Positions 9,736 to 59,712 of a DNA stretch of 64,000 bases are shown piece after piece. Position 1 is the first letter of the stretch, and each line of letters opens with the position of its first letter. The stretch is from Macrocybe gigantea (taxonomy: Eukaryota > Basidiomycota > Agaricomycetes > Agaricales > Callistosporiaceae). Where the stretch lies: positions 124,001 to 188,000 of the forward strand of contig SJRY01000077.1 in assembly GCA_011319805.1 (NCBI GenBank), written 5' to 3'. Both the position numbers and the translations under genes were made by a program. The notes beneath the pieces were generated by a model. That model saw nothing but the letters and a program-made list of their open reading frames with translations, ran no database searches and was not told the DNA's origin.

Positions 9736-10476
9736 ATGGCACACACTATCGCTCCGGGAAGCAAGGTCCTCGTCACCGGCGCCAACGGCTTCATCGCCGC
9801 CTGGATCGTGCGCACGCTCCTCGAGCGCGGGCATGCCGTGCGTGGCACCGCACGCTCTGCGGAAAAAGCGCAGGGTCTCAAGAAGGTCTTTTCCAACTAC
9901 GGCGACAAGCTCGAGGTCGTCGTCGTGGAGGACATCACCAAGGCGAGCGTCTCCTGCGTCGATCCGACGAGATGTCTTTTTAATCTTTTTTTTTTTTTTC
10001 CTTTTCCAATGTTAGGACGGTGCTTTTGACGAGGCCGTTAAAGGCGTCGACGCCGTTGTGCACGCGGCCTCGCCGTTCCACATGAAAGCAGACGATCCGC
10101 AAGGCGAGTCTCGCGTGCTGCGAATACATTTGCGATTGACGGATCGAGGCGCTGACCGATCATCGCGACGCCGACTTTGCAGAGCTCATCAAGCCCGCGG
10201 TGCACGGGACGCTCAGCGTGCTCGAGAGCACGCTCAAGTTCGGGTACGCCACCAGCCCTTGTCATCATCTCCCCGCAGCCGGTCTGGTTTTACTCTTTTC
10301 TTTCTCTCTGTCCTGCAGCACGAACGTCCGTCGCGTCGTCGTCACCTCGTCCTGCGCCGCCGTGTTCCATGTGACAAAGGAGCCCGTCACGTACACCGAG
10401 AAGAACTGGAACACGCAGTCCATTGAGGAGGTCGAGCGTCTCGGCCGCCAGGCGGCTCCGGGACACAAGTACAGGG
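9736..10476 (+). pseudogene. NAD(P)-dependent reductase, 5' part (split by retrotransposon)
   Basis: Extended short-chain reductase of the dihydroflavonol-4-reductase / GRE2-like group. The protein starts MAHTIAPGSKVLVTGANGF, with the dinucleotide-binding TGANGF at residues 14-19. It continues over short introns through VDAVVHAASPFHMKADDPQ, ELIKPAVHGTLSVLEST and VVVTSSCAAVF. The catalytic motif would be YRASK, but the codons are interrupted after TAC AGG G by an LTR element. The remainder resumes at 16118. The intact paralog at 17151 shows the expected order of exons. Such enzymes reduce ketones or aldehydes with NADPH; the substrate cannot be inferred. With 5.6 kb of opposite-strand retroelement in the catalytic motif the gene should be inactive. 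Confidence 0.85.
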
Positions 10477-10681
10477 TGTAAGCCTGTGTAGTGTCAGGCT
10501 CCACTGGTGAGTGGCGGGACGGAGAGGGCACAAGACAGAACGGGCACAAGACGTCTATTGAGAGGGAGAAGAGCGTAGTACGGAAAAAGGGGATTCGCTA
10601 GCTAGCTGTCCTCGTGTCCTGTATGTATATATGTGAAGTCTACGGTCACGTGTCCTGGTAAGCCTGAGGGGCAGGCTTACA
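10477..10681 (-). repeat. 3' LTR of the Gypsy element (left copy)
   Basis: 205 bp, TG...CA termini, same sequence as the right copy at 15913-16117 by direct reading. Its right end contains a perfect 8-bp inverted repeat, TAAGCCTG/CAGGCTTA, around a 4-5 base loop. Confidence 0.95.
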
Positions 10682-10836
10682 CCGTCCCCCCCCTTCGAAA
10701 AAGAGACGACAGGTCAAAAAAGAAAAAAAAAAAATACGGGGAGGACAGAGAAGGAGGTAAGTATAATGGGCCGAAGCGCGGGTGCGTTAAAAAACCTCGG
10801 GGAGGAAAAAGCTACCGGCTGGCGTTCGAAGCAAAC

Positions 10837-15695: not shown

Positions 15696-15912
15696 ATGCG
15701 CTACCTTGTAGGTGTATGCGCTTGGTTCTCTCGAGTAAGACTCTGTGACGACGAGAAATGTGGGGCAGAGACCGAGCCAAGCTCTCGATGTGGAGCAGGC
15801 CCGTTGCTACGGAGATGCGGTGCCAGATTTGGCGGGGAGTGTCTGATGACAACTCACGATGTTATGCGCGCTCAGGGTCGAGCGGGCGTCTTGATCGCCG
15901 TTCAAAAAAAAG

Positions 15913-16117
15913 TGTAAGCCTGTGTAGTGTCAGGCTCCACTGGTGAGTGGCGGGACGGAGAGGGCACAAGACAGAACGGGCACAAGACGTCTATTGAGAG
16001 GGAGAAGAGCGTAGTACGGAAAAAGGGGATTCGCTAGCTAGCTGTCCTCGTGTCCTGTATGTATATATGTGAAGTCTACGGTCACGTGTCCTGGTAAGCC
16101 TGAGGGGCAGGCTTACA
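15913..16117 (-). repeat. 5' LTR of the Gypsy element (right copy)
   Basis: 205 bp, same sequence as the left copy (10477-10681). It is followed directly by CAGGG at 16118-16122, which duplicates the five bases before the left LTR. Confidence 0.95.
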
Positions 16118-16970
16118 CAGGGCCTCCAAAACCCTCGCTGAGAGATGTTCGTGTCGTGTCTTCTTTGTGTCCTCCAGTTCCGCGGTCTGATGCTTTCCAC
16201 TTCCTCTATAGCTGCTTGGGACTTTGTGGAAAAGAATAAAGACAAGATCAAGTGGGATCTTGCAGTGATCAACCCTCCTTTCGTAAGTGCTTCAAAAGCA
16301 TTTATGCTCTTAACCCCCTCTCTAAAGCCCCATCGCAGGTGTTCGGCGTACGTCAGCTAGCCATGACAAGCGTATAACCTAGCCTAACCATTCACACGCT
16401 CACAGCCCATCATCAACGACATCCCCAACGTCGAATCGCTCGGCGAGTCGGCGCGCGAACTCTACCAAACCCTCCTAGTCGAGGGCTCAAAGTCGCCCGA
16501 GACACTCTTGACGCAGGGCTCCGCCTGGATCGACGTGCGCGACATCGCAGAGGCGCACGTTCGCGCGCTCGAAAAGGAGGAGGCCGGCGGCGAGCGCATC
16601 ATCGTTTCCGCCGGTGAGTCGTTCTACTTCTAATTGTTTGCGTTTCACTGGGTGCTTAAGTGTCTGTAACGCGACTCTAGGTTCGTTCGTCTGGCAAGAC
16701 TGGAGTGAGTAACCTTCCCCGTCTACAAAGCGGCATACGTCCTCGCAAGAAACTAACCCTTTCTCAGTCGACGTCGCCAACTCGCTCAGCCCGAACCCCA
16801 TCCCCTCGCACAGCCCGCTGCCGCGCGGTGTGCCGAGCGAGGGTCGCAAGCCAGTCTACACGATCAACTACAACACCGAGAAGCAGACGCGCATTCTCGG
16901 AATCAAGTACAGGTCCCAGCAGGACATTGTGCGCGACGCCCTCGCAGACTTTGAGGCGCGCGGCTGGTAA
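16118..16970 (+). pseudogene. NAD(P)-dependent reductase, 3' part (separated by retrotransposon)
   Basis: Continues the gene started at 9736. The first codons complete the catalytic motif (ASKTLAER). After an intron (about 16148-16208) come AWDFVEKNKDKIKWD and LAVINPPF, then VFG, then PIINDIPNVESLGESA and WIDVRDIAEAHVRALEKEE. The last exon ends DALADFEARGW with the stop at 16968-16970. Each exon matches the paralog at 17151-18626 in order, and both genes end in the same ADFEARGW. Removing the element and one CAGGG copy would restore a continuous frame, showing that the gene was intact until insertion. Confidence 0.85.
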
Positions 16971-44830: not shown

Positions 44831-45327
44831 TTAAAGGAGCTCGTCGGCAGCGACGCGCCAAGGGCCGATGCGCCACTTGGGAGGCTTGATGCTGTCGGCC
44901 GCTTCGGTGAGGACGTCGTCGGCCGCGACGCGCCAGGGCCAATGCGCCATTTGGGAGGCTTGATAGCGTCGACTTCAACGAGTTCGTCGGCCGCGACGCG
45001 CCACCGTCTGATACCCCATTTGGGCGGCTTGATCGCATCGCCGTCCGTCATGATCTCGTCCGCGGCAACCCTCCACGGTCCGATGCGCCACTTCGGCGGT
45101 TTGATGCTGTCTGCCTCGACCAGCTCGTCAGCAGCCACGCGCCACGGCCCAATGCGCCATTTCGGAGGCTTGATGGCGTCAACAGCCTCGGCAAGGACGT
45201 CGTCCGCAGCCACGCGCCAAGGACCAATGCGCCACTTGGGTGGTTTGACAGCGTCCATCTTGTCATAAACGCTACCGTCAGTCCAGAGCACGTGTGAGAT
45301 ATCAGAGAACGATCTCACAGATGCCAT
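44831..45327 (-). CDS. Repeat-peptide precursor gene A (six KPPKWRIGPW units, one frameshift)
   Basis: Starts MAS at 45325-45327. A 60-nt segment (45259-45318, starting GTGAGA and ending CAAG) follows, which can be spliced out or read through since it is a multiple of three. Then come six units of 22-26 residues: core KPPKWRIGPWRVAADE with acidic spacers such as DVLAEAV and LVEADS. Unit 4 has the variant KPPKWGIRRWRVAADE. In unit 5 a base is missing in the run at plus-strand 44936-44938; without it the frame derails, and with it the protein continues to the TAA at 44831-44833, like its partner gene D. The function is unknown. The cationic Trp/Pro-rich core with acidic spacers resembles multi-copy peptide precursors. 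There is no signal peptide. Confidence 0.75.
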
Positions 45328-45408
45328 TTGGTTAGATATGTGTTGTAGTTGTGAGTGCAGAAGATGCGAGAACGAGTCTGAGAGACAACAAGGTGCGATT
45401 GAACTGTG

Positions 45409-45416
45409 CTTTTATA
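45409..45416 (-). promoter_or_regulatory. TATA box of repeat-peptide gene A
   Basis: TATAAAAG on the minus strand, 82 bases before the ATG. The same element in the same context (CGTATAAAA) precedes all four genes of the family. Confidence 0.7.
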
Positions 45417-45699
45417 CGAGTCTGGCAGTGCAGAGCCCCCACGATGGAATATCCTTTGACAGCCGTGCCATACCGCAGCCGACCAACCCCACAGATAGAA
45501 GGCACAGGCTTGATGCCATCCTGTGGCGCCTTTCTCTCATCATCCATCCTCACTCCCGGTGTTTCGTATCTCCGTCAGAAACAACGCCGTAAGAAGGGTC
45601 CTCCATTGAAGCCGTCAAGTTCAAGTTCCTTGCATTGTTCGGATACTTGTTTCTGTAAGGAGGGTGATATTCAAACGACCCTTTGGTGTTCGTAGTTTG

Positions 45700-46640
45700 A
45701 AAACGAAGAGTAATGGATGGCTACTGCATAAGCCTCACATTCTGTGTAGACCCTTCCAAAGCGGTTATGCCCAAACGAAGACCGGTATTTGCATTGAGCT
45801 GAGACAGAGTAATCAATGACGATGGCGGTGATACTGAAACCCGTCCTTAGTCGCTTCGGTTACACCGCAAGCTAGTGTTTCCAGGAATCAGTCTTTCCAC
45901 ACCAGGATTGACCTACATTCCCTATGTCAAACAGCTCCAAAAGACCCTCTTGATTGAATAACTAAAGCGTGCAACCAGGGTATATTCGGTTCGCCGATGA
46001 TTTGCAACCTGTTCGCCGTTCTGCGAACGTTTTACGTTTCAGTCGAACATACGTAGAAGTCAGGTGGCGCGAACGTCTGATGGTAGCAGTGCAGATGAAT
46101 TCGGGAGACTATCCAGATCAATGTGTTGGCGGAATTCTAGCCAATCTTTGTATGAGAAAGCGCAGGCTGAGAGCGCATTGAGCTATATTTTCAGGCAGAT
46201 TCCCTGCAAGTTGAAGTTGCGTTGAAGTGTTGAAACGTTCAAGTCGTGTCACGAATCTCGTGGGACGTGACAAACGCGCTTTGGACCGAACCGCGGGCAC
46301 AGTTTATGACCCTTTTCAAGTATCCAGCCTTGTGCCAAAGGCTCTTCAAGACGCCTACGATAATTTTGTTTGGTCAGATCAGGCAGCAGAGCTTGGCAAC
46401 ACTCGCGAAGCCTTGACTAAGACTCCTAACAATCAATGATTCAGATATGTGGAGAATGTGAAGCCTTTACGTGCTCTCAAGTGGACCATTCATGCAAAAG
46501 ACAAAGACTGCGATTCACTACAAAACTTTAGGTACAGAAAGACTAGTACGAAGGCACATTGAGGATCAGGGCCTACAACAAATCTGTCATAAGGGGCAAG
46601 CCGAATCCCAGCGAGAAGATACTGACCACCTTTACGAAGC
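45700..46640 (+). other. Spacer between genes A and B with disrupted small frames
   Basis: Holds two plus-strand frames with counterparts in the other arm: 45969-46181 (MQPGYIRFADDLQPVRR...) and 46227-46439 (SSRVTNLVGRDKRALDRT...). Relative to the other arm it shows extra or missing bases (an 11-base insertion near 46215-46226; single missing Gs near 46332 and 46411), so the second frame is broken here. It may be a relic of a small gene oriented opposite to the repeat-peptide genes. Confidence 0.35.
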
Positions 46641-46653
46641 AGACCTTGCGAGT

Positions 46654-47152
46654 TCAGACGTACAGGAGCTCATCGGCGGCGACCCTCCACGGACCAATGC
46701 GCCACTTGGGAGGCTTGATGCTATCCACGTCCGCGAGAACCTCGTCGGCAGCAACACGCCAAGGGCCGATGCGCCACTTGGGCGGCTTGATCGCGTCGGT
46801 GTCGGACATGATCTCGTCCGCAGCGACCCTCCACGGTCCGATACGCCATTTCGGAGGTTTGACGCTATCTGCCTCGACGAGCTCGTCAGCAGCGACGCGC
46901 CACGGACCAATGCGCCATTTCGGCGGCTTGATCGCGTCGTCGTCCGCCATGATCTCGTCGGCTGCAACGCGCCACGGTCCGATGCGCCATTTCGGAGGCT
47001 TGACGGCGTCAACAGCGTCGGCGAGGACTTCGTCCGCAGCCACGCGCCAAGGACCAATACGCCACTTGGGAGGTTTGATAGCGTCGATCTGTTAACACGA
47101 CGGTGAGCGACGAGAAACAATGCAGAAGAGAGACACGACTGACAGAGGCCAT
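46654..47152 (-). CDS. Repeat-peptide precursor gene B (six KPPKWRIGPW units)
   Basis: ATG at 47150-47152 (MAS), a 55-nt intron (GTCAGT...AACAG), then the second exon to the stop at 46654, about 148 residues in all. Six units carry the invariant core KPPKWRIGPWRVAADE with spacers such as VLADAVD, IMADDD, LVEADS, IMSDTD and VLADVD; the end is ELLYV. Because the intron is not a multiple of three it must be removed, so the mature protein has only three residues before the first repeat. A secretion signal is absent. Codons of the core vary between units only at synonymous positions. It is the counterpart of gene C in the other arm. Confidence 0.82.
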
Positions 47153-47224
47153 TTCGTATAGAGATATGTGTGTTTGCTTGTGAGTAGAGAACGACTCTGA
47201 GGACCAAGGCAGTTGTTGCTGCTC

Positions 47225-47233
47225 TCTTTTTAT
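47225..47233 (-). promoter_or_regulatory. TATA box of repeat-peptide gene B
   Basis: TATAAAAAG on the minus strand, about 73 bases before the ATG, in the context ACGCGTATAAAAA shared with gene C. Confidence 0.7.
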
Positions 47234-47500
47234 ACGCGTCCACCCGCATTCCAACGTTCCAGAAATGGGCATAAACTGCGAAGCTCACAGCCGAACAAAG
47301 GAGGCAGGTGGAATGCACGCCCGCACTCCATCACGCCCTATTGTTCCTCTTCTTGCACCAAACAGACCCTCAGACCCTCGCTGAGCGTCAGCTCGGTTAC
47401 CCCTTCTCTCCAACGTTTGAAGCAAGGCAAGTCGATCGCCGCTAGTACTACGTTGGGAGGCGAGGAACGCCCTGTTAGGACGAAGAACAAAGAACACGCT

Positions 47501-47792
47501 AGTCGTCTCAATGGCATCCTAAACGGCGCTCTACCGAGCGCATCGATTTCGCAAGACGACGAACACATCACATCGCTGATCGGGATTCGGGACAACGGCT
47601 TGGACGCACCACGCCATTGCCAGCCACTTACCCAAGGCGGACACATCTCGCCTCGAGGGGCCCCCCTCCTCAGGCGATGAAAAGAGATGACAAAGCCGAT
47701 ACGTTACGTAGTACAAATTTCCACCCGAGTCTACACTACATTACACTACACACCTTCCCTGTCACGTACACAAAAAAAAAAAATCCCAACCC
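47501..47792. other. Intergenic region between gene B and the P450 gene
   Basis: Contains the region upstream of gene B and the 3' end of the P450 gene. An A run lies at 47771-47782. No coding exon was seen. Confidence 0.35.
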
Positions 47793-49788
47793 TCACGCAC
47801 CATAATCCTCCAAAAGCTCACGCACGCCCTCATACGTCTTGGCCGCCCTCGGCTCAAACACGACAGAAAACGGCATGGGATGCGCGTTGGCCGACTCTGT
47901 GAACGCGAGGTCGTCGATCGGCGGGGCGCGCGGGTCAGGCTTGACGGTGAACGCCCACTGGATGAGCGCCGCGTTGAGGAACACGGACGCGCTCGCCATG
48001 TGCTGCCCTGGGCACACTCTGCGTGTGGCGTGTCGGAGGTGAGAGACAAACAGTCGGTCAGCCAGTCGAGCGAACGGCAGGGAGAGCGATTTTAGCGCAC
48101 CTGCGACCGAAACCGAACGAGTAAGCCTTTAGGTCTTCCTTGATCTTTCCCTCCTTGGTGAGCCACCTCTGCGGATCGAAGCGTTCCGGGTCCGGGAAGA
48201 ACTGCGGGTCACGACCCACAGCCCACACGTTTCCAATGACAGCCGTCCCTTTAGGAATAACATAATTTTTCTACCAAAAGAAAAAAGAACGTTCGAACCC
48301 GAACCGAATCACGAAAAAAAAAAAAAAAAAAAGATCATGCGCACCCAAACGATATCCTTGCTCGCCTTGTGCGCGAACCCACCGGCGCTGACAGGACGCC
48401 ACCTGAAGCTCTCGAGGACAAACGCCTGAAGCTGCGGCAAGTTTTCCTGGTCCGACAACGTCGGCGCACGGGTCCTCCCAACGACGGCATCGAGCTCTCG
48501 CTGCACCTTTGCCTGCGCCTCGGGGTGGCGCGCCGCGGCGAGGACGGTGACGCTGATCGCCGACGCGGTGGTGTCGGATCCGGCGCCGAACATGGACCCG
48601 GCGAGGTACGCCGTCTCATTGTCGGACAGGCCGAGCTCGCGCTGTCTGTCGAGCAAGTACTTGCCGAAACAGTCTGGCGTCGCGTCGCCGCGCTCGAGCT
48701 TGCCCTTGAGCTCCATGAGCTGCGTCTTGAACAGGTCGAGCTCTTCGCGGTGTCCGTCTTGCAGCTCTTTGAGGTATCCGGGGATGTAGCTGATATATAA
48801 AAAAAAAGAACATGAAGAACGGGCGCGTGATGAGCCGTTAGTGGTGAGGTTGTGCAGTGGCGAACGCGCACCGGAGGATGGGCCAGGCGTCGACTTTCCA
48901 CAGCCCAGGGCGGAGGTTGTTTCCGAGACGAGTGAGGCAGCGGTTGACGGCTTTGATCTCTGGGTCATCGTAATCTTTGGAAATCTTTCCATACGCAAGG
49001 GCCATGACGACTCTTGCAGCGTATCTTTCAGAAGGAAAAGAAAAATGCTCACGTGAGCTGAGACGACAGCAGAGTGACGTCCTTCCTACCGTTTGGCATG
49101 CTCCTGGTGTCCCTCTGGCCGATCGAGAATGTCATAAACGTGCTGTCTCGCGAAAAGGCTCATGGTAGGGGCGTAAGTCGTGATGATTTTAGGCTGCAGA
49201 TGCGCGTGCAGTGCCCTTGTCACCACGTCCAGAAACGTCATGTTATGCAAAACAGGCAACGAAACACGGGCCGCTCACCTGCGCATGCGCTTGAATCGGT
49301 CGCCGGCGGGGGTGAGGAGGACGCGCATGCCGCCCGAGAGTGTCTCGCCCGCAGCGATGCTCTTCGGTCTGTCGACGGTGTACGCGCCCTCACGCTCCAT
49401 GATGTCGATAGCGGCCTGGAGACGGCCGATGATGATGATGGTCTGGAACCCTGACGGAGCGAAACATCGGGCCGTACTCCTTTGTCCACTCTTCAAATTG
49501 CGATACGCGCTGCGCGTGTGTGAAGACGTTTGGATGGTGGTGGTGGGGACAGATTAAGCGAAAGTCGTCAGTCTCGCGAGTGTCGTTAGACTAGGGGAGA
49601 TCGTAGACGTACAATTTTGTGGGGATGGTGTTGCCGAATATCCAGCTGTCCCTTGGCGGGCCGGGCGGGAGCGAAACGTTCGAAGGCGTCTTGCCCGTCA
49701 GATGTCTGTGCAGCACCGCCAGCAGAGTCCCGCACAGCACCAAGACGGCGACGGCCTGCGGCTGCGACAGCGTTTCCAACAGCGACAT
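47793..49788 (-). CDS. Cytochrome P450 monooxygenase
   Basis: N-terminal membrane anchor in MSLLETLSQPQAVAVLVLCG and the hinge SLPPGPPRDSW. Then come AIDIMEREGAYTVDRP, the oxygen-binding helix AGSMFGAGSDTTAS, the ExxR motif as ESFRWRP, and the haem loop YSFGFGRR joined to VCPGQHMAS across an intron, with the thiolate Cys in VCPG. The end is at 47793 (LLEDYGA). It belongs to the large group of fungal microsomal P450s that hydroxylate small molecules with NADPH:P450 reductase; substrate unknown. Near the N-terminus two bases are apparently missing, one in the AAA at 49462-49464 and one in the CCC at 49449-49451; restoring the reading gives the usual pattern, EYGPMF then SLRQG then TIIIIGR. The gene lies inside the inverted duplication, next to gene B. 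Confidence 0.85.
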
Positions 49789-51457
49789 GACGGAAAATTC
49801 CCAATGCCCGCAGCGTGCAACGGTCGAATGCTCTAATAGTCCGGGACTGAGTGTATGTTCTTGGTGACGAGAGGAGATGCGCCCGCGAGGTGCGATGCAA
49901 GATAAGAAGAAAGGGGGGGGAGTTGGGGTAGGGTGGGGGAGAGCGTGCGTGCGTGCGTGGGGAGCAGCGGGGAAGCCGGAGAGGATCTTGAAAGGGCTTA
50001 TATTCAGGTGGCAGGCGCGGAGGGACCGGTCACTTGGGATCGCGCCAAGATCCGGACGGGCGGGGAAAAGACGAGCCTTGAGTGAAAAAGCAAAAAGTGG
50101 AGAGAAGAGCGATCTTCACGATAGATCCGGTCCCGGTCACGGGGCTGAGCGAGGAGAGTGTGTGTCGGTGTGAGCAATGCGGTTTCTATTGAAAAAAAAA
50201 ATTAGAAAACAGAGAACGGATGATGGCGACATGACAAGCAGAAGAGCCGCCTCTGCGTACACTTTTCGTTTCTCCATCAACCCCAAGGAGCTTTCCGATC
50301 CCGTCGATCCCTCCAAGTGCTCCCATGATCCCGAGACCGAAACCGAAACCGAAACCGAAACCGTGGTATAGGATGCACCCAGCATCACTTCCAGACTGAC
50401 GAGGAGGACCATGCGCACGAGCGCCTTTTCCGCCCGTCCAAAACGCTAGTTCTTGCATAATCAACGACCCCTTGGTCCCTGCAAACCGAAGCCGACCCTT
50501 GGACCCTAAACGGGGCAAGCTGACTGCCTCTTGCTTATCGTGCGAAACCCGTCCTCGCCCATCGGACGCGCATGACGTCGGCCCTCTCTCTCTCTCTCTC
50601 GATGTCACTGCGATAAGCCTGTACTAGCCTCTGGGATTACGATTACTGCCTTGCCCGTCCCTCCTCTCCGAATCCGCGTTTATTGTAAATTTTTTTCCTC
50701 TCTTCTTTCTTCTTTTTGAGTCACTCCGTTTAATCTGCGGGATCCCTTCTTTTCTTTTTTTTTTTTTTTTTTTTTTTGATTCCGAGAAGAATGCGGTTCC
50801 GTCGTCCACGTGAACCAGGAATCGACCCTGAGATAGAGTTTGAACGGCTTCAAAAAGATCGACCAAGGGCTTCGACATGCACAACGATCACCGCATCACC
50901 GCATCACCGACTCTGCAAACAACCTGCGAATACTAGATAGCCACCCCCCGCCGGACCCGCATCGCTCTTTAGATCACCCCCTTCTGAGCATCTGCAAGAG
51001 CGCACTCGTACCGTGTACCTGACCTGTGTAGAACCAGCCAACCTCGACCTCGCCTCGCTCTCGCTCTCGAACGCAACCGCCTCACTCCTGGCCAGTAACC
51101 ATTTCGACCCCGCTCTCCACGCATGCAACGTCCATACCATACATACATACCGATATACCGACAAGCGCCCCGCCGGCCCATAGCGATACCAATCAGACAC
51201 TTACAAGTGCATCCCCCGAGACCATTATAGACCAGATCTATCCCCATCCGTCCAGCGACGCACACCCACGGGCCGGTGACCGTTCACATTTCACACATGT
51301 ACCCAGACCGTTCCAAGGGAAACGCATCGATACACGTCGAATCCTACTTATAATCTACATCGATCTGCACCCGCGTCACCAACATTACAGCATTGTAAAT
51401 CAGAAAGAAAAAAAAGAGTTGTAATAAAAAAACGATATCCAAGGATGTCACATGCAT
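49789..51457. other. Intergenic region with simple repeats
   Basis: About 1.7 kb between the P450 start and the 3' end of the acetyl-CoA hydrolase gene. Simple repeats: (ACCGAA)n at about 50336-50363, a TC run at about 50583-50600 and a T run at about 50754-50777. No coding exon was recognised. Confidence 0.5.
50336..50363. repeat. (ACCGAA)n hexanucleotide repeat
   Basis: Four to five copies of ACCGAA in tandem, upstream of the P450 gene. Confidence 0.75.
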
Positions 51458-53885
<2,428 letters not shown>

Positions 53886-54317
53886 GGTTGGTTGCTTTTC
53901 GGGAGGAGCAGGTAGGGGGATGTTAGGAGGGGATTGTTGGGGTAACCATACAGACGTCAGCCGGGGTGTAATATAAAACAAAAAAAACACACAGAAATTG
54001 GGGTCAATGCCGGCCGTGCTTGCCTTTTGCCTTTAAAGATCAAGCGGAGCATCCGATACCTTTGCTAGTGATGACGTAAGCGCTCCAGACCCTATCGCCT
54101 TGGACGAGTTAACTGCTTGTTACGTCCTTGGTCGTGTAAAAAGAGCTCTGACAAGCCGGGAGGTAGATTGATCAAGTCGTCCGCGTCAGCAATCCAGCTA
54201 TGGATTTTCCAATCGTCGCTCATCTCAGACGATTTTCAAAGCTACTTTGGATATATCAACTACATGACGATGCAGGGCATTCATCGGTCTATCATCCGCG
54301 ACGCGAGCGCACTTTTA
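53886..54317. other. Intergenic region
   Basis: About 430 bases holding the promoter of the acetyl-CoA hydrolase gene and the 3' end of the dienelactone hydrolase gene. No coding exon was seen. Confidence 0.4.
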
Positions 54318-55550
54318 TCACAGGTAGCTCGAGACCACAGTCTTTTCGGTCAAGCTAAACTCGTCGAACCAATTCAAAATACCTCTCGCCGATTCTTCCT
54401 TTGCCCAACCTACGTGAATTCGTGAATCTGTGCTCCTGCCATGCTGCAAGCCACTCACGCTCGATCTGCACTGCCGGATCGCCGCGCACGGCGAACCCGT
54501 GAGCGACGCCCGAAAAGACCTGGATGTGATATTTGGCTTTGGCTTCTATCAACAGATCTTCTGCGCGTCGGCGCTTCTCAAGCGGGAACGTGTGATCGAT
54601 TTCTGGCATTCCGCCGTCAGACAAGAGACGCTGCAAAGGACCGAACGCCACCGAGGACGCACCGGCGCAGACATCATCACGGGCCCTTTGGGTCGTTGAC
54701 AAAGTGAAAAGCTGCGGTCAGTTTTTCGTCAGGCGGTGCGATGAAAGTGGTGGCGTACGCTTGACTCTGGTGATCTGGTCCTCGCTCAGGAACGCCGGAT
54801 GCGCAAAGGCGGCTTTCAGACGCGCGTCAGATACGCCAAACAGACGACGATCACGGACGTTCGCGCTCTCGCGAACGCGGCTCACCAGCTACGACTTTCT
54901 CCGTCGTGGCCATGTCAAGCGCGAACGGACCGCCAAAGCAGTACCCTACAAGTTTACAATCATAAAAACATCAAGAGCTCAAAAAAAAAAAATCGATTTG
55001 GTTCTGGAATGGCTGACCTACGGCGCAGTACTTTGCGTTGGGTCCGTACTGCCTGAACACGGCGTCGAGCCAGCGCGGCACCGCTGCGACGGCAGTCTTT
55101 TTCGCCTTGTCCATCCATGCTTGGCGGTCGAACCCTGCCTCCGTGTGAACGTGCACCGGATCGCCGAAAAAGTAGTCGACGCCCAACACGACGTATCCTT
55201 TTTTTGTTGTATGTCTCAATATTTCCAGAGACTAGAAGAAGGAGGAAAAAAAAAAAAACGGACGACGCGGAGGAATGGGAATATTCACCGTGCTCGGCAA
55301 AGTAGTCCTGGAGCAGCTGGTTGTTCAGGAAGAAAGGGCCCCACACGTCGGCGAAGAACAAGAGCACTCTTCTCTGCGCGCTTCCTTCCTTGCGCGGCGA
55401 CGACGACGGAGGTGGTTCAGAGACGTACGTCGGCACGCCGGCGATCGTCACGGATCTGCCGACCGGCGTGCCGCTGTGCTTGACGCCCGTGAAGCAGTGC
55501 TCGCCTGGCGGGCCTGCGAGGACGGCTGCGGAGCGTGTTGTGCTGGTCAT
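54318..55550 (-). CDS. Dienelactone hydrolase family protein
   Basis: ATG at 55548-55550 (MTSTTRSAAVLAGPPGEHCF). Later exons give VLLFFADVWGPFFLNNQLLQ, YVVLGVDYFFGDPVHVHTE, and the nucleophile motif GYCFGGPFALD with the catalytic Cys in G-x-C-x-G. The Asp/His part follows: EIDHTFPLEKRRRAEDLL and FSGVAHGFAVRGDP with the catalytic His in HGF. The end is NWFDEFSLTEKTVVSSYL at 54318. Family members are alpha/beta hydrolases that open cyclic esters such as dienelactone; many fungal ones have unknown substrates. Together with the adjacent P450 it could modify a small molecule, but this is not shown by the sequence. Confidence 0.88.
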
Positions 55551-57109
55551 CGTGGGCTTGAGTGCGTGATTGAACGAGGTCAGTGCTTGTGAAGAGGAAG
55601 GAGACTACGGCTCGGCGAGCGCGTGCAAGGCCTTTATTTATTCATCTGTTCATCTGATTCGTGCGAAGCCTGACTGGGAAGGCTCAAGACTGACGTGGGG
55701 ATGCGTGCTTAATCAGAGGAAGCAAGGAAGCGCAGAGCTGCCAGTGTGAGAGCCCCACCGGACGATGGATGTTGCGTGCGTTCTGCGGCAGTGCCGGTTC
55801 GTGTAACGTTAAAATAACACATGTCCCCGAGTGCAGCAGTGCCGGCCGGGTACGTGCATGGCGTTCGATGGATGCGATGTCAGTTTGACTTTCGTTTTTG
55901 CATTTTCATAATTTTGTACGTGCCAGGAAGGGAGGCTCTGGGAGGCAGGTCGAGAGGCGTTGGCTGGGAGCCTAGCCTTGTAGGACTTTCGCATCAACGC
56001 GGAGAGCCGTGGGCGTTCTTCCAGGCGGTGAGCGGCGGCGGCTGGCTTCGGAACGCGTCTCGCTTTGGAGTTCTTGTGCAGCGTGTGGTTTTGATTGCCG
56101 ATTCGAGTTGCCCTGCTTGTTCCGTTTCTGCTACGAGAATGAATGGGTTGCATCATCATGCGCTGGACAGTGCGAAGCTCGTGTCGTGTCGTTTAGTAAC
56201 TTACTTGCAAGAATGGATGTGTTATTTGTACGGAACGCACTGCTCCCCCCCGCTCTATGGCCGAAGGATGTAGCCAAGGCACCGCATTCCCGTCGCTTTA
56301 CCCGGCTATGACATTGATATCTTGCTATTGTCGTAGGACAAAGGGTGGAAACTTGAAAGCACCACTTGCAAAGTCGGACCGCACTCTCGCCAAGCATTCT
56401 CTATCGCTCACAACATCTGTAACCTGAATGCATAATGTACTGTACAAGTCCCAAATCGTCTACGGTTTCCGACTCGCAAAAAAAATAGCCTCCGTTTACT
56501 GCACAAGGATGTGCTTTGCAACCGGAACTTGACCTTTCCTTACGCTCATGGAGGCTGTTCGCCATCCGTGTCTACGCTTTCTTCTTCAAGAATCAAGACG
56601 GCGTTGTCACGACGTCTGCGAAAACTTTTTTAGCCGCTATGTCGCTTCTTCCGTCATTCGCCAGACTAGCCAAGGTTAGGACAGAATCAGTGTTCGAAGC
56701 GGTAGACAAATGAAAAAGTGTGCTCATCCTCCTATCTTCGGTCATAATGGACCTGCATGGAATAACTGGGCCTAGTCGTCGAATAACAACCCAAGCCAGA
56801 AGCGGTGTGCTGTTATGACAAGGCCGGCAGGGAGATGGTGTTTCCTTTCCGGCTTCATTCCATGGGTTGTATCTTGTAGAGGTTCCTCCGGTCGCGCTGC
56901 AAGGGACGACTGGAAAGTCTTCGACATCACAAACAGGGTTGATTGAGGGCTTTTGTCATCAGAAATGGGTAGAAGATTGGACGCTGAGGTCTCGCACCAA
57001 CCTCGAAGGATCCATGCCGCCCAGTGAGGACAGGAATTCTGACAAGGATACGTGCACTCTCCAACCCGAAAAGGTGGTGTACTATCGCTTATGCAGAGGA
57101 TAGGTCTTG
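55551..57109. other. Intergenic region left of the right duplication arm
   Basis: About 1.6 kb without a recognisable gene. One plus-strand frame (56516-56713) gives a short unrecognised peptide. The long minus-strand frame that enters this region from 57392 has no domain and overlaps the promoter of gene C; it is not accepted as a gene. Confidence 0.4.
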
Positions 57110-57371
57110 TTCTAGAAGCGGGTCCTACGACGGCTACCCTTGTGGAATGCAGTGCGCCAAAGGAGAGGGGGTAACGGCTCCTCCTCGCCTCCGACGCATG
57201 AACGGGCGACCGAACAAACATTGAGGGTTTGATGTTCACTACTGTCGCTGACAAGACGAGGAGCAATGGGTCGCGATGGAGCGTGGGCGCGCATTCCACC
57301 TGCCTCACTTTGCTCGGCTGTGAATTCTCGCAGTTTATGCCTATTTCTGGAAGATGCAACGGGTGGACGCG

Positions 57372-57379
57372 TATAAAAG
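57372..57379 (+). promoter_or_regulatory. TATA box of repeat-peptide gene C
   Basis: TATAAAAG in the context GACGCGTATAAAAG, 81 bases before the ATG at 57453; same spacing as in the other family members. Confidence 0.75.
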
Positions 57380-57452
57380 AGAGCAGCGACAACTGCCTTG
57401 GTCCTCAGTGTCGTTCTCTACTCACAAGCAAACACACATATCTCTATACGAA

Positions 57453-57954
57453 ATGGCCTCTGTCAGTCGTGCCTCTCTTCTTGGTCATTTGTCGTTGCTC
57501 ACCGTCATGTCAACAGATCGACGCTGTTAAGCCGCCCAAGTGGCGCATTGGCCCGTGGCGCGTGGCTGCTGACGAGCTCGTCGAGGCAGACAGTGTCGAC
57601 GCCATCAAGCCTCCCAAGTGGCGCATCGGACCGTGGCGCGTCGCAGCCGACGACATCATGGCGAACGATGATGCGATCAAGCCCCCGAAGTGGCGCATTG
57701 GGCCGTGGCGCGTCGCTGCTGACGAGCTCGTCGAGGCAGACAGTGTCAAGCCTCCGAAATGGCGCATCGGGCCGTGGAGGGTCGCTGCTGACGAGATAAT
57801 GGCTGACACCGACGCCATCAAGCCGCCCAAGTGGCGCATCGGTCCCTGGCGTGTTGCTGCAGACGAGGTCCTTGCGGACGCGGATAGCATCAAGCCTCCC
57901 AAGTGGCGCATTGGTCCGTGGAGGGTCGCCGCCGATGAGCTCCTGTACGTCTGA
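57453..57954 (+). CDS. Repeat-peptide precursor gene C (six KPPKWRIGPW units)
   Basis: Exon 1 is only ATG GCC TCT (57453-57461). A 55-nt intron (57462-57516, GTCAGT...CAACAG with a GCTCAC branch-like site) precedes exon 2 (57517-57954). The protein has about 148 residues: MAS, then six units with an invariant core (K-P-P-K-W-R-I-G-P-W-R-V-A-A-D) and acidic spacers such as LVEADSV, IMANDD, IMADTD and VLADAD; it ends ELLYV. The core is strongly cationic at its front half, the spacer strongly acidic. No signal peptide, no transmembrane helix and no Cys. The frame is intact throughout. Alternatives to a peptide precursor are a short solenoid or a scaffold protein with 24-residue repeats. Confidence 0.85.
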
Positions 57955-59121
57955 ACTCGCAAGGTCTGCTTCGTAAAGGAGGTCAGTATCTTCTCGCTGG
58001 GATTCGGCTTGCCCCTTGTGACAGATTTGTTGTAGGCCCTGATCCTCAATGTGCCTTCGTACTAGTCTTTCTGTACCTAAAGTTTTGTAGTGAATCGCAG
58101 TCTTTGTCTTTTGCATGAATGGTCCACACTTGAGAGCACGTAAAGGCTTCACATTCTCCACATATCTGAATCATTGATTGCTAGGAGTCTTAGTCAAGGC
58201 CTTCGCGAGTGTTGCCGAGCTCTGCTGCCTGATCTGACCAAACAAAATTATCGTAGGCGTCTTGAAGAGCCTTTGGCACCAAGGCTGGATACTTGAAAAG
58301 GGTCATAAACTGTGCCGTGTGACTCATTGCGGTTCGGTCCAAAGCGCGTTTGTCACGTCCCACGAGATTCGTGACACGACTTGAACGCTTCAATTCAACT
58401 TGCAGGGAATCTACCTGAAAATATAGCTCAATGCGCTCTCAGCCTGCGCTTTCTCATACAAAGACTCGCTAGAATTCCGCCGACACATTGATCTGGATGG
58501 TCTCCCGAATTCATCTGCACTACTACCATCAGACTTTCGCGCCACCCGACTTCTACGTATGTTCGACTGAAACGTAAAATGTTCGCAGAACAGCCAAGCA
58601 ATTGCAAGTTATCGACGAACCGAATATACCCTGGTTGCACGCTTTAGTTATTCAATCAAGAGGGCCTTTTGGAGCTGTTTGACATAGGGAATGTAGGTCA
58701 ATCCTGGTGTGGAAAGACTGATTCCTGAAAACACTAGCTTGCGGTGTAACCGAAGCGACTAAGGACGGGTCTCAGTATCACCCCGGTCTACACAGAATGC
58801 GAGGCTTATGCAGTAGCCATCCATTACTCTTCGTTTTCAAACTACGAACACCAAAGGGTCGTTTGAATGTCACTATCCTTATAGAAACAGGTATCCGAAC
58901 AATGCAAGGAACTTGAACTTGACGGCTTCAATGGAGGACCCTTCTTACGGCGTTGTTTCTGACGGAGATACGGAACACCGGGAGTGAGGATGGATGATGA
59001 GAGAAAGGCGCCACAGGATGGCATCAAGCCTGTGCCTTCTATCTGTGGGGTTGGTCGGCTGCGGTATGGCACGGCTGTCAAAGGATATCCCATTCGTGGG
59101 GGCTCTGCACTGCCAGACGCG
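57955..59121 (-). other. Spacer between genes C and D with small conserved frames
   Basis: Holds two minus-strand frames matching the left arm: 58428-58640 (MQPGYIRFVDNLQLLGC...) and 58190-58393 (SSRVTNLVGRDKRALDRT..., ending NTREGLD). Here the second frame is continuous while its left-arm counterpart is broken. It reads ALVPKALQDAYDNFVWSDQA, which looks protein-like, but I do not recognise a family, and an in-frame stop separates the two pieces. Confidence 0.35.
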
Positions 59122-59129
59122 TATAAAAG
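59122..59129 (+). promoter_or_regulatory. TATA box of repeat-peptide gene D
   Basis: TATAAAAG in the context GACGCGTATAAAAG, 90 bases before the ATG at 59212. Confidence 0.75.
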
Positions 59130-59211
59130 CACAGTTCAATCGCACCTTGTTTGTCTCTCAGACTCGTTCTCGCATCTTCTGCACTCACAACTACAACGCA
59201 TATCTAACCAA

Positions 59212-59712
59212 ATGGCATCTGTGGGATCGTTCTCTGTCATCTCCGACGTGCTCTGGACTGACGGTAGTGTTTATGACAAGATCGACGTTGTCAAACCACC
59301 CAAGTGGCGCATTGGTCCTTGGCGCGTGGCTGCGGACGAGGTGCTCGCCGAGGCTGTTGACGCCATCAAGCCTCCGAAATGGCGCATTGGGCCGTGGCGC
59401 GTGGCTGCTGACGAGCTGGTCGAGGCAGACAGCATCAAACCGCCGAAGTGGCGCATCGGACCGTGGAGGGTTGCCGCGGACGAGATCATGGCGGACGGCG
59501 ATGCGATCAAGCCGCCCAAATGGGGCATCAGACGGTGGCGCGTCGCGGCCGACGAACTCGTTGAAGTCGACGCTATCAAGCCTCCCAAATGGCGCATTGG
59601 TCCCTGGCGCGTTGCTGCAGACGACGTCCTCGCGGACGCGGATAGCATCAAGCCTCCCAAGTGGCGCATTGGTCCGTGGCGAGTCGCCGCCGATGAGCTT
59701 CTCTATGCCTGA
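59212..59712 (+). CDS. Repeat-peptide precursor gene D (six KPPKWRIGPW units)
   Basis: Begins MAS. The next 60 nt (59221-59280) are in frame (VGSFSVISDVLWTDGSVYDK) and may be an unspliced intron equivalent, since the homologous place in genes B and C holds a 55-nt intron; here the donor is weak (GTGGGA). Six units follow with cores KPPKWRIGPWRVAADE; unit 4 carries the variant KPPKWGIRRWRVAADE as in gene A. Spacers: VLAEAVD, LVEADS, IMADGD, LVEVD and VLADADS; the end is ELLYA at 59712. The frame is intact. It is the counterpart of gene A, whose unit 5 is frameshifted. Confidence 0.83.
   Translation: MASVGSFSVISDVLWTDGSVYDKIDVVKPPKWRIGPWRVAADEVLAEAVDAIKPPKWRIGPWRVAADELVEADSIKPPKWRIGPWRVAADEIMADGDAIKPPKWGIRRWRVAADELVEVDAIKPPKWRIGPWRVAADDVLADADSIKPPKWRIGPWRVAADELLYA

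Follow-up and report, generated by a model that had tools for sequence, protein, structure and literature searches.

What do the small tandem-repeat genes in this stretch of the Macrocybe gigantea genome make: precursors from which several peptides are cut, or proteins that work as intact arrays of repeats? The question is raised by four genes, here called g1 to g4, which lie between positions 44831 and 59712 of the window (the whole stretch of 64,000 nucleotides that was analysed, from contig SJRY01000077.1). Across them 23 intact cores of the type KPPKWRIGPWRVAADE can be read, in units of 23-26 residues that include an acidic spacer (for example KPPKWRIGPWRVAADEVLADADSI). We see about an even chance that these genes, together with their relatives elsewhere in the genome, form a family of non-secretory multi-core precursors that a protease would cut into several copies of short tryptophan-bracketed peptides.

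Four repeat genes and selection on their cores

On the minus strand, g1 (44831-45327) begins with exon 1 at 45319-45327, followed by a predicted intron (45259-45318) and by the repeats from 45258 onwards, and g2 (46654-47152) combines exon 1 (47144-47152), a predicted phase-0 intron (47089-47143) and exon 2 (46657-47088), which holds six units before the stop at 46654-46656 and gives a predicted protein of 147 amino acids. On the plus strand, g3 (57453-57954) has exon 1 at 57453-57461, a predicted intron at 57462-57516, six units in exon 2 (57517-57951) and the stop at 57952-57954 (148 amino acids), and g4 (59212-59712) has exon 1 at 59212-59220, a predicted intron at 59221-59280, six units in exon 2 (59281-59709) and the stop at 59710-59712 (146 amino acids). 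In all four, exon 1 encodes Met-Ala-Ser (MAS), and the intron, which in each window gene is a sequence prediction, would start right after ATG-GCx-TCT, with a length of 55 nt in g2 and g3 and 60 nt in g1 and g4. The repeats are out of frame with the ATG in g2 and g3, and g1 and g4 are open also without an intron; a phase-0 intron at this place would join MAS directly to the repeats in all four genes. TATA-like boxes, as consensus matches only, precede the ATG by about 88 bases in g1 (45409-45416, minus strand), 81 in g2 (47227-47234, minus), 80 in g3 (57372-57378, plus) and 89 in g4 (59122-59128, plus). An earlier note on this DNA had described four genes with six near-identical units each; the units are indeed there, but g1 lacks a continuous reading frame through all six: a frameshift interrupts it in unit 5, and its last unit is readable in a different frame.

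The window core is cationic (charge +4) and rich in tryptophan and proline. The residues between its two tryptophans are RIGP in 21 of the 23 cores and GIRR in the two others (unit 4 of g1 and unit 4 of g4). The alternation of basic cores and acidic spacers that the earlier note had described is supported, as is a balance of charge, with net charges of 0, 0 and +2 for the predicted g2, g3 and g4 proteins; g2 and g3 each contain 24 basic and 24 acidic residues, 12 tryptophans, no cysteine and no dibasic pair. Likewise, no signal peptide was found in the window genes by a hydropathy check, and KR, KK and RK, the candidate Kex2 sites, are absent from predicted g2-g4, where a single RR lies inside one g4 core.

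The cores are maintained at the level of the protein. Their 23 copies exist in 20 distinct DNA versions which encode only three protein versions, with a proportion of synonymous differences (pS) of 0.639 against 0.031 for nonsynonymous differences (pN; 253 pairs). Such a contrast, 64% against 3%, indicates that the peptide sequence is under selection and is not preserved by chance. Position by position, the core hardly varies, and the next four residues reach pN values of 0.36-0.43. The stretch between cores, a variable acidic spacer in the earlier note, is itself partly constrained: an aspartate three residues before the core, an [IV] directly before it and two hydrophobic residues directly after it are present in 23/23 units. 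Between genes, g2 and g3 differ with pS 0.323 and pN 0.030 (some of the aligned units being of different types), and g1, up to its lesion, differs from g4 with pS 0.054 and pN 0.016.

The family across the genome

In the 41.2-Mb genome, the family comprises 13 loci: the four of the window (contig C77), one on C205, seven on C50 and one on C274. The seven C50 genes are all minus-strand genes and are spread over the interval 18.9-138.7 kb of that contig. Two further copies are found on C132, namely a shortened copy of the C50-52k gene and a copy of the C50-50k gene, the latter within a 6.6-kb stretch that is 99.7% identical to C50 (C132:38269-44900 against C50:45134-51756). This stretch may represent a second haplotype or a recent duplication, and retrotransposon-like open reading frames (ORFs) adjoin it on C132. 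Lesions affect five of the 13 loci: frameshifts, which may be assembly errors, in g1, C50-19k, C50-23k and C50-42k, and the loss of the intron donor in the C205 copy.

Each gene encodes two to seven tandem modules, and the predicted proteins (61-239 amino acids) consist of the repeats with short ends. The modules have the form W-x(4,5,7)-W-[RKHQ]-x-x-A-D-[DE]-x-L and are separated by acidic spacers. Over 25 distinct modules the tail reads W-[RKHQ]-x-x-[AVT]-[DNS]-[DE]-x-[LVI], a consensus that was partly selected for, as the modules were gathered with a loose motif. The set does not include the copies on C132, the decayed modules of C205, or a single module from each of C50-19k and C50-42k that lies out of frame. 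The loops between the tryptophans, of 4, 5 or 7 residues, are of 19 different kinds among the 25 modules. Within g2, g3, C50-50k and C274 the loop is constant from unit to unit (with one N/D change in C274), and it changes between genes while the tail stays. What is conserved across the family is therefore the pair of tryptophans and W-[RK]-x-x-A-D-[DE]-x-L. In the C50 genes the unit spacing is longer than in the window. In the seven proteins checked (g2-g4 and four C50 genes), the last module plus 2-4 residues forms the end of the protein.

The C274 gene (375.9-376.7 kb) was initially only a weak match (E 0.02) in a repeat search of the genome. It starts with MSQQTSVNAP, continues with a predicted phase-0 intron of 73 nt and carries seven units of the type MGWATGHHFNWKRSADDIVENEAQTES. 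Its gene plan, of which the search made no use, agrees with that of the other members; the C274 repeats as query find only C274 at E <= 1, so that membership rests on the motif and the gene plan. Its core, MGWATGHHFNW, is followed by KR in all seven units and then by an acidic stretch, the C-terminal extension is longer than in the other members, and the whole predicted protein has a net charge of -19. Its cores differ with pS 0.61 and pN 0.01, by a simpler count than that used for the window cores. This gene resembles a Kex2 substrate, yet it has no signal peptide and could not meet Kex2 unless exported another way. The C274 core contains no proline and little charge, and the idea that a cationic Trp/Pro-rich antimicrobial peptide is the essence of the family is not supported; such a label does not fit the family as a whole. 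Synthetic peptides derived from mushroom Kex2-processed repeat proteins (KEPs), which are loose analogues, had no antibacterial activity in the part of PMC9769878 cited here.

We predict a common gene plan: a TATA-like box, a first exon of 3-12 codons (encoding MAS, MSEQLKGTQLT, MSETQRQEQT or MSQQTSVNAP, among others), one phase-0 intron of 55-80 nt and then the modules. In 11 of 12 loci the box falls 71-93 bases upstream of the ATG, and the C274 box is at -67. The exception is C50-42k, with its box at -41; C50-19k has additional matches beyond one at -79. The donor is GTTGAG in all seven C50 genes, and the acceptor of the 21k gene is the least certain. This plan is common to loci without DNA similarity: at the thresholds used, the window, C50 and C274 stretches show none, so that the shared motif does not reflect recent copying. 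None of the 11 predicted N-termini contains a signal-peptide-like stretch (hydropathy check only), and no KR, KK, RK or RR separates the units of the seven predicted proteins g2-g4 and four of C50, such sites being found in C274 alone. When the genome was scanned with a DNA pattern representing two tails in succession, there were 58 matches, of which 34 fall in family loci and 24 elsewhere without forming any series, against 2 for the backward control. A weak match on C171 (E 0.38) was rejected, as its plus-strand ORFs of at least 60 amino acids contain no repeat array.

That no described family has this core, as supposed from the sequence at first, agrees with the libraries searched, which gave no match above cut-off. 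Pfam and NCBIfam gave matches solely below their curated cut-offs (five predicted proteins having no Pfam match above it), and the PDB contained no relative by sequence (best E 0.32). In a set of 5.8 billion proteins, neither g2 nor a nine-sequence family alignment found any protein at E <= 1, the search having scored the 7997 candidates that share most words, so that a very distant relative could escape. As a control, a search of this set with a DUF7025 segment of the window yielded 81 proteins, including two of Mycena rosella and one of Lentinus brumalis; agaricomycete proteins are therefore present in it, though short repeat genes left unannotated could still be absent. The prokaryote genomes gave seven pattern matches, none of which was confirmed. 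In the literature, six 7-residue strings of the family matched no paper, and among the papers listed in topic searches no title or abstract describes it. AlphaFold2 modelled g3 exon 2 (3 sequences) with a predicted local distance difference test score (pLDDT) of 60 and a predicted template modelling score (pTM) of 0.49, the other four models reaching pLDDT 30-39, and C50-52k (9 sequences) with 54 and 0.14; Foldseek found no PDB fold match at E <= 0.001 (best E 0.69). There is no confident fold, and the strand-turn-strand of the first AlphaFold2 model is not to be trusted. The confident solenoid of known function that the earlier note had named as a contrary outcome did not appear.

Peptide precursors or intact arrays

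In a precursor, the loop with its flanking tryptophans would be the product, the tail W-[RK]-x-x-A-D-[DE]-x-L and the acidic spacer together would act after each core as a recognition or follower element that also balances the charge of the core, and a cytosolic enzyme would cut near the second tryptophan. A loop that is the same within genes and variable between them, beside a constant tail, follows the logic of a defined product and its recognition tag, and thus favours this organisation. The protein-level selection on the window and C274 cores points the same way, as do the net charge of 0 in g2 and g3, where basic cores and acidic spacers cancel out, the gene plan shared by dissimilar loci, the lack of a confident fold and the turnover of genes seen in the lesions. 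By analogy, agaricomycete KEP peptides likewise end in Trp before basic residues, in the cited part of PMC9769878. The released peptides, if any, might serve in defence or signalling.

Several observations weigh against peptide release, and some of them suit its main rival, in which the proteins stay intact in the cytosol. Each would then be an array of one short linear motif, W-x(4-7)-W-[RK]-x-x-A-D-[DE]-x-L, and would bind several copies of a single partner as inhibitor, decoy or scaffold, in the style of calpastatin. We regard such an array as a serious possibility, although a less probable one than the precursor. No cleavage site for a protease recurs at every unit boundary, and the tail persists behind the final core too, although no spacer is required there; both points also speak for an array. 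Conservation of each single unit is stricter than dosage alone would demand of a redundant peptide. Different loops are also mixed in one protein in C50-52k, -42k, -19k and -21k, and g4 mixes RIGP with GIRR. The spacing from the second tryptophan to ADE-x-L is fixed in 25/25 distinct modules, although the alignment rule demanded such a shape; units that recur every 23-26 residues in the window, and at longer intervals in C50, point to flexible linkers, and disorder-like predictions together with the missing signal peptide fit an array as well. On the other side, the array has no known partner, and loops identical from unit to unit within g2, g3, C50-50k and C274 but free to change between genes are more natural for a defined product. 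Also against release, UstYa/b genes (DUF3328, PF11807) are absent near the loci and matched only on C206, C203 and C292 (lower bounds), no prolyl oligopeptidase (PF02897) is linked to them, the only one being on C318 in an exon-wise search that does not tell A from B type, and the selected ORFs that were scanned beside the loci revealed no processing gene shared by them.

Two further explanations are much less probable. The charge-block pattern and the Trp/Arg content of the window genes would suit a protein of condensates or of the stress response in which basic-aromatic blocks alternate with acidic ones, or else a reserve of cationic antimicrobial peptide, strictly as in indolicidin; we find either improbable, as a charge pattern would demand far less constraint than the sequence shows and the C274 core has no cationic, proline-rich character. 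Least probable of all, the genes could encode ordinary secreted KEPs, the gene model having overlooked their signal peptide. By the definition in the part of PMC7329392 cited here, a KEP has a signal peptide and at least three repeats with dibasic sites between them, and this family shares with them the tandem near-identical cores with acidic spacers, a core ending in Trp before basic residue(s) and the multi-copy logic. The KR after every C274 core would fit this explanation, and from PMC9769878, as far as cited, we note that agaricomycete KEP cores often end in Trp (Coprinopsis KEP 490115 yields QYKAPSW and relatives, and Pleurotus and Lentinula peptides end in -AADW) and that one KEP without a signal peptide was ascribed to misannotation. 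The family differs from KEPs, however, by the missing signal-like stretch at all 11 predicted N-termini and by the confinement of dibasic sites between units to C274, KR being absent from the seven other proteins checked; moreover, with a TATA-like box only 67-93 bases away from the ATG, an upstream exon would hardly fit in.

Genomic surroundings and known precursor systems

The window genes lie on the arms of an inverted duplication (left arm 44936-47230 with g1 and g2, right arm 57375-59603), composed of blocks I1-I5 which are 89-97% complementary. The arms align with 92% identity over 1408 bases and 95% over 931 bases, they pair g1 with g4 and g2 with g3 as mirror images, and their inner ends are about 10 kb apart. 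A P450, an acetyl-CoA hydrolase and other genes sit between them. The window neighbours include F-box, P450, acetyl-CoA hydrolase and DUF7025 genes and a BTB match (E 0.003, below cut-off); those on C50 are an alpha/beta hydrolase, Amidoligase_2, PTPA, RRP14 and a short-chain dehydrogenase, and the three ORFs next to C274 gave no Pfam match. The Amidoligase_2 pieces (PF12224; C50:28642-29593, one above the family cut-off), of a peptide-bond-forming type by name, lie between C50-23k and C50-42k. Outside the repeat-gene region, a 216-base direct repeat, 98% identical, occupies 10476-10691 and 15912-16127 of the window. Elsewhere in the genome, 5.8S ribosomal RNA (rRNA) matches of 162 and 146 bits were found at C306:88443-88596 and C211:59727-59880, the second perhaps a diverged or decayed rDNA copy.

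Pieces of the cytochrome P450 gene (47796-49553; PF00067 within 48312-49085) share the minus strand with g2 and are its immediate upstream neighbour. The segment C205:44140-48856 is a decayed copy in which the P450 was kept together with the repeat gene: window 50.1-46.8 kb is collinear with C205 except for one inverted piece of 154 bases, and on the 3' side the C205 match jumps to window 60.25-59.94 kb. The differences between C205 and g2 are mostly of the C-to-T type, 46 of 63 at CpG, a pattern as left by methylation or by mutation resembling repeat-induced point mutation. A partnership of this P450 with the repeat genes, to which it is linked at the window and C205 loci, is possible as a lead only. 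In bacterial biarylitides, cross-links are made by P450s, as the cited part of PMC12951456 states.

Among fungal ribosomally synthesised and post-translationally modified peptides (RiPPs), the MSDIN precursors of amatoxins and phallotoxins have, in the cited part of PMC5159998, 33-37 amino acids, a 10-residue leader, a core set by two prolines, a conserved helical follower and introns of 52-58 bp. The present family resembles them as an agaricomycete gene family with variable cores, a conserved tail as possible follower and short introns; it differs by 2-7 cores instead of one, by the absence of the MSDIN leader and invariant prolines, and by a prolyl oligopeptidase found only unlinked. The cited part of PMC9233826 describes borosins, basidiomycete RiPPs whose core is cleaved from the precursor, as would be the case here, and dikaritins and epichloecyclins, which take a Golgi route with Kex2 cutting, the dikaritins being cyclised by UstYa-type enzymes. 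A borosin precursor carries its own N-methyltransferase region, whereas our predicted proteins are repeats only; dikaritins and epichloecyclins share multicore precursors with repeated cores, but the present family has no signal peptide, and the UstYa genes are on other contigs. We would tentatively raise, as an unlikely but specific proposal, that these cytosolic multi-core proteins are a fifth class of RiPP-like precursors in fungi. Each variable Trp-to-Trp core would be followed by the recognition tag W-[RK]-x-x-A-D-[DE]-x-L, and its two tryptophans might be cross-linked, for instance by the P450 that is adjacent to g2 and duplicated with it to C205.

Surveys of repeat-peptide precursors start from signal peptides, so that a multicore family without one would be missed by design. 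The multicore fungal RiPPs covered in the cited part of PMC9233826 pass through the Golgi, whereas the family described here has no recognisable secretion signal in its predicted proteins. If its peptides are released, nature would have here a new system of multi-copy peptides in which a single genome holds many variants of the core; if they are not, the family would represent a new repeated binding motif.

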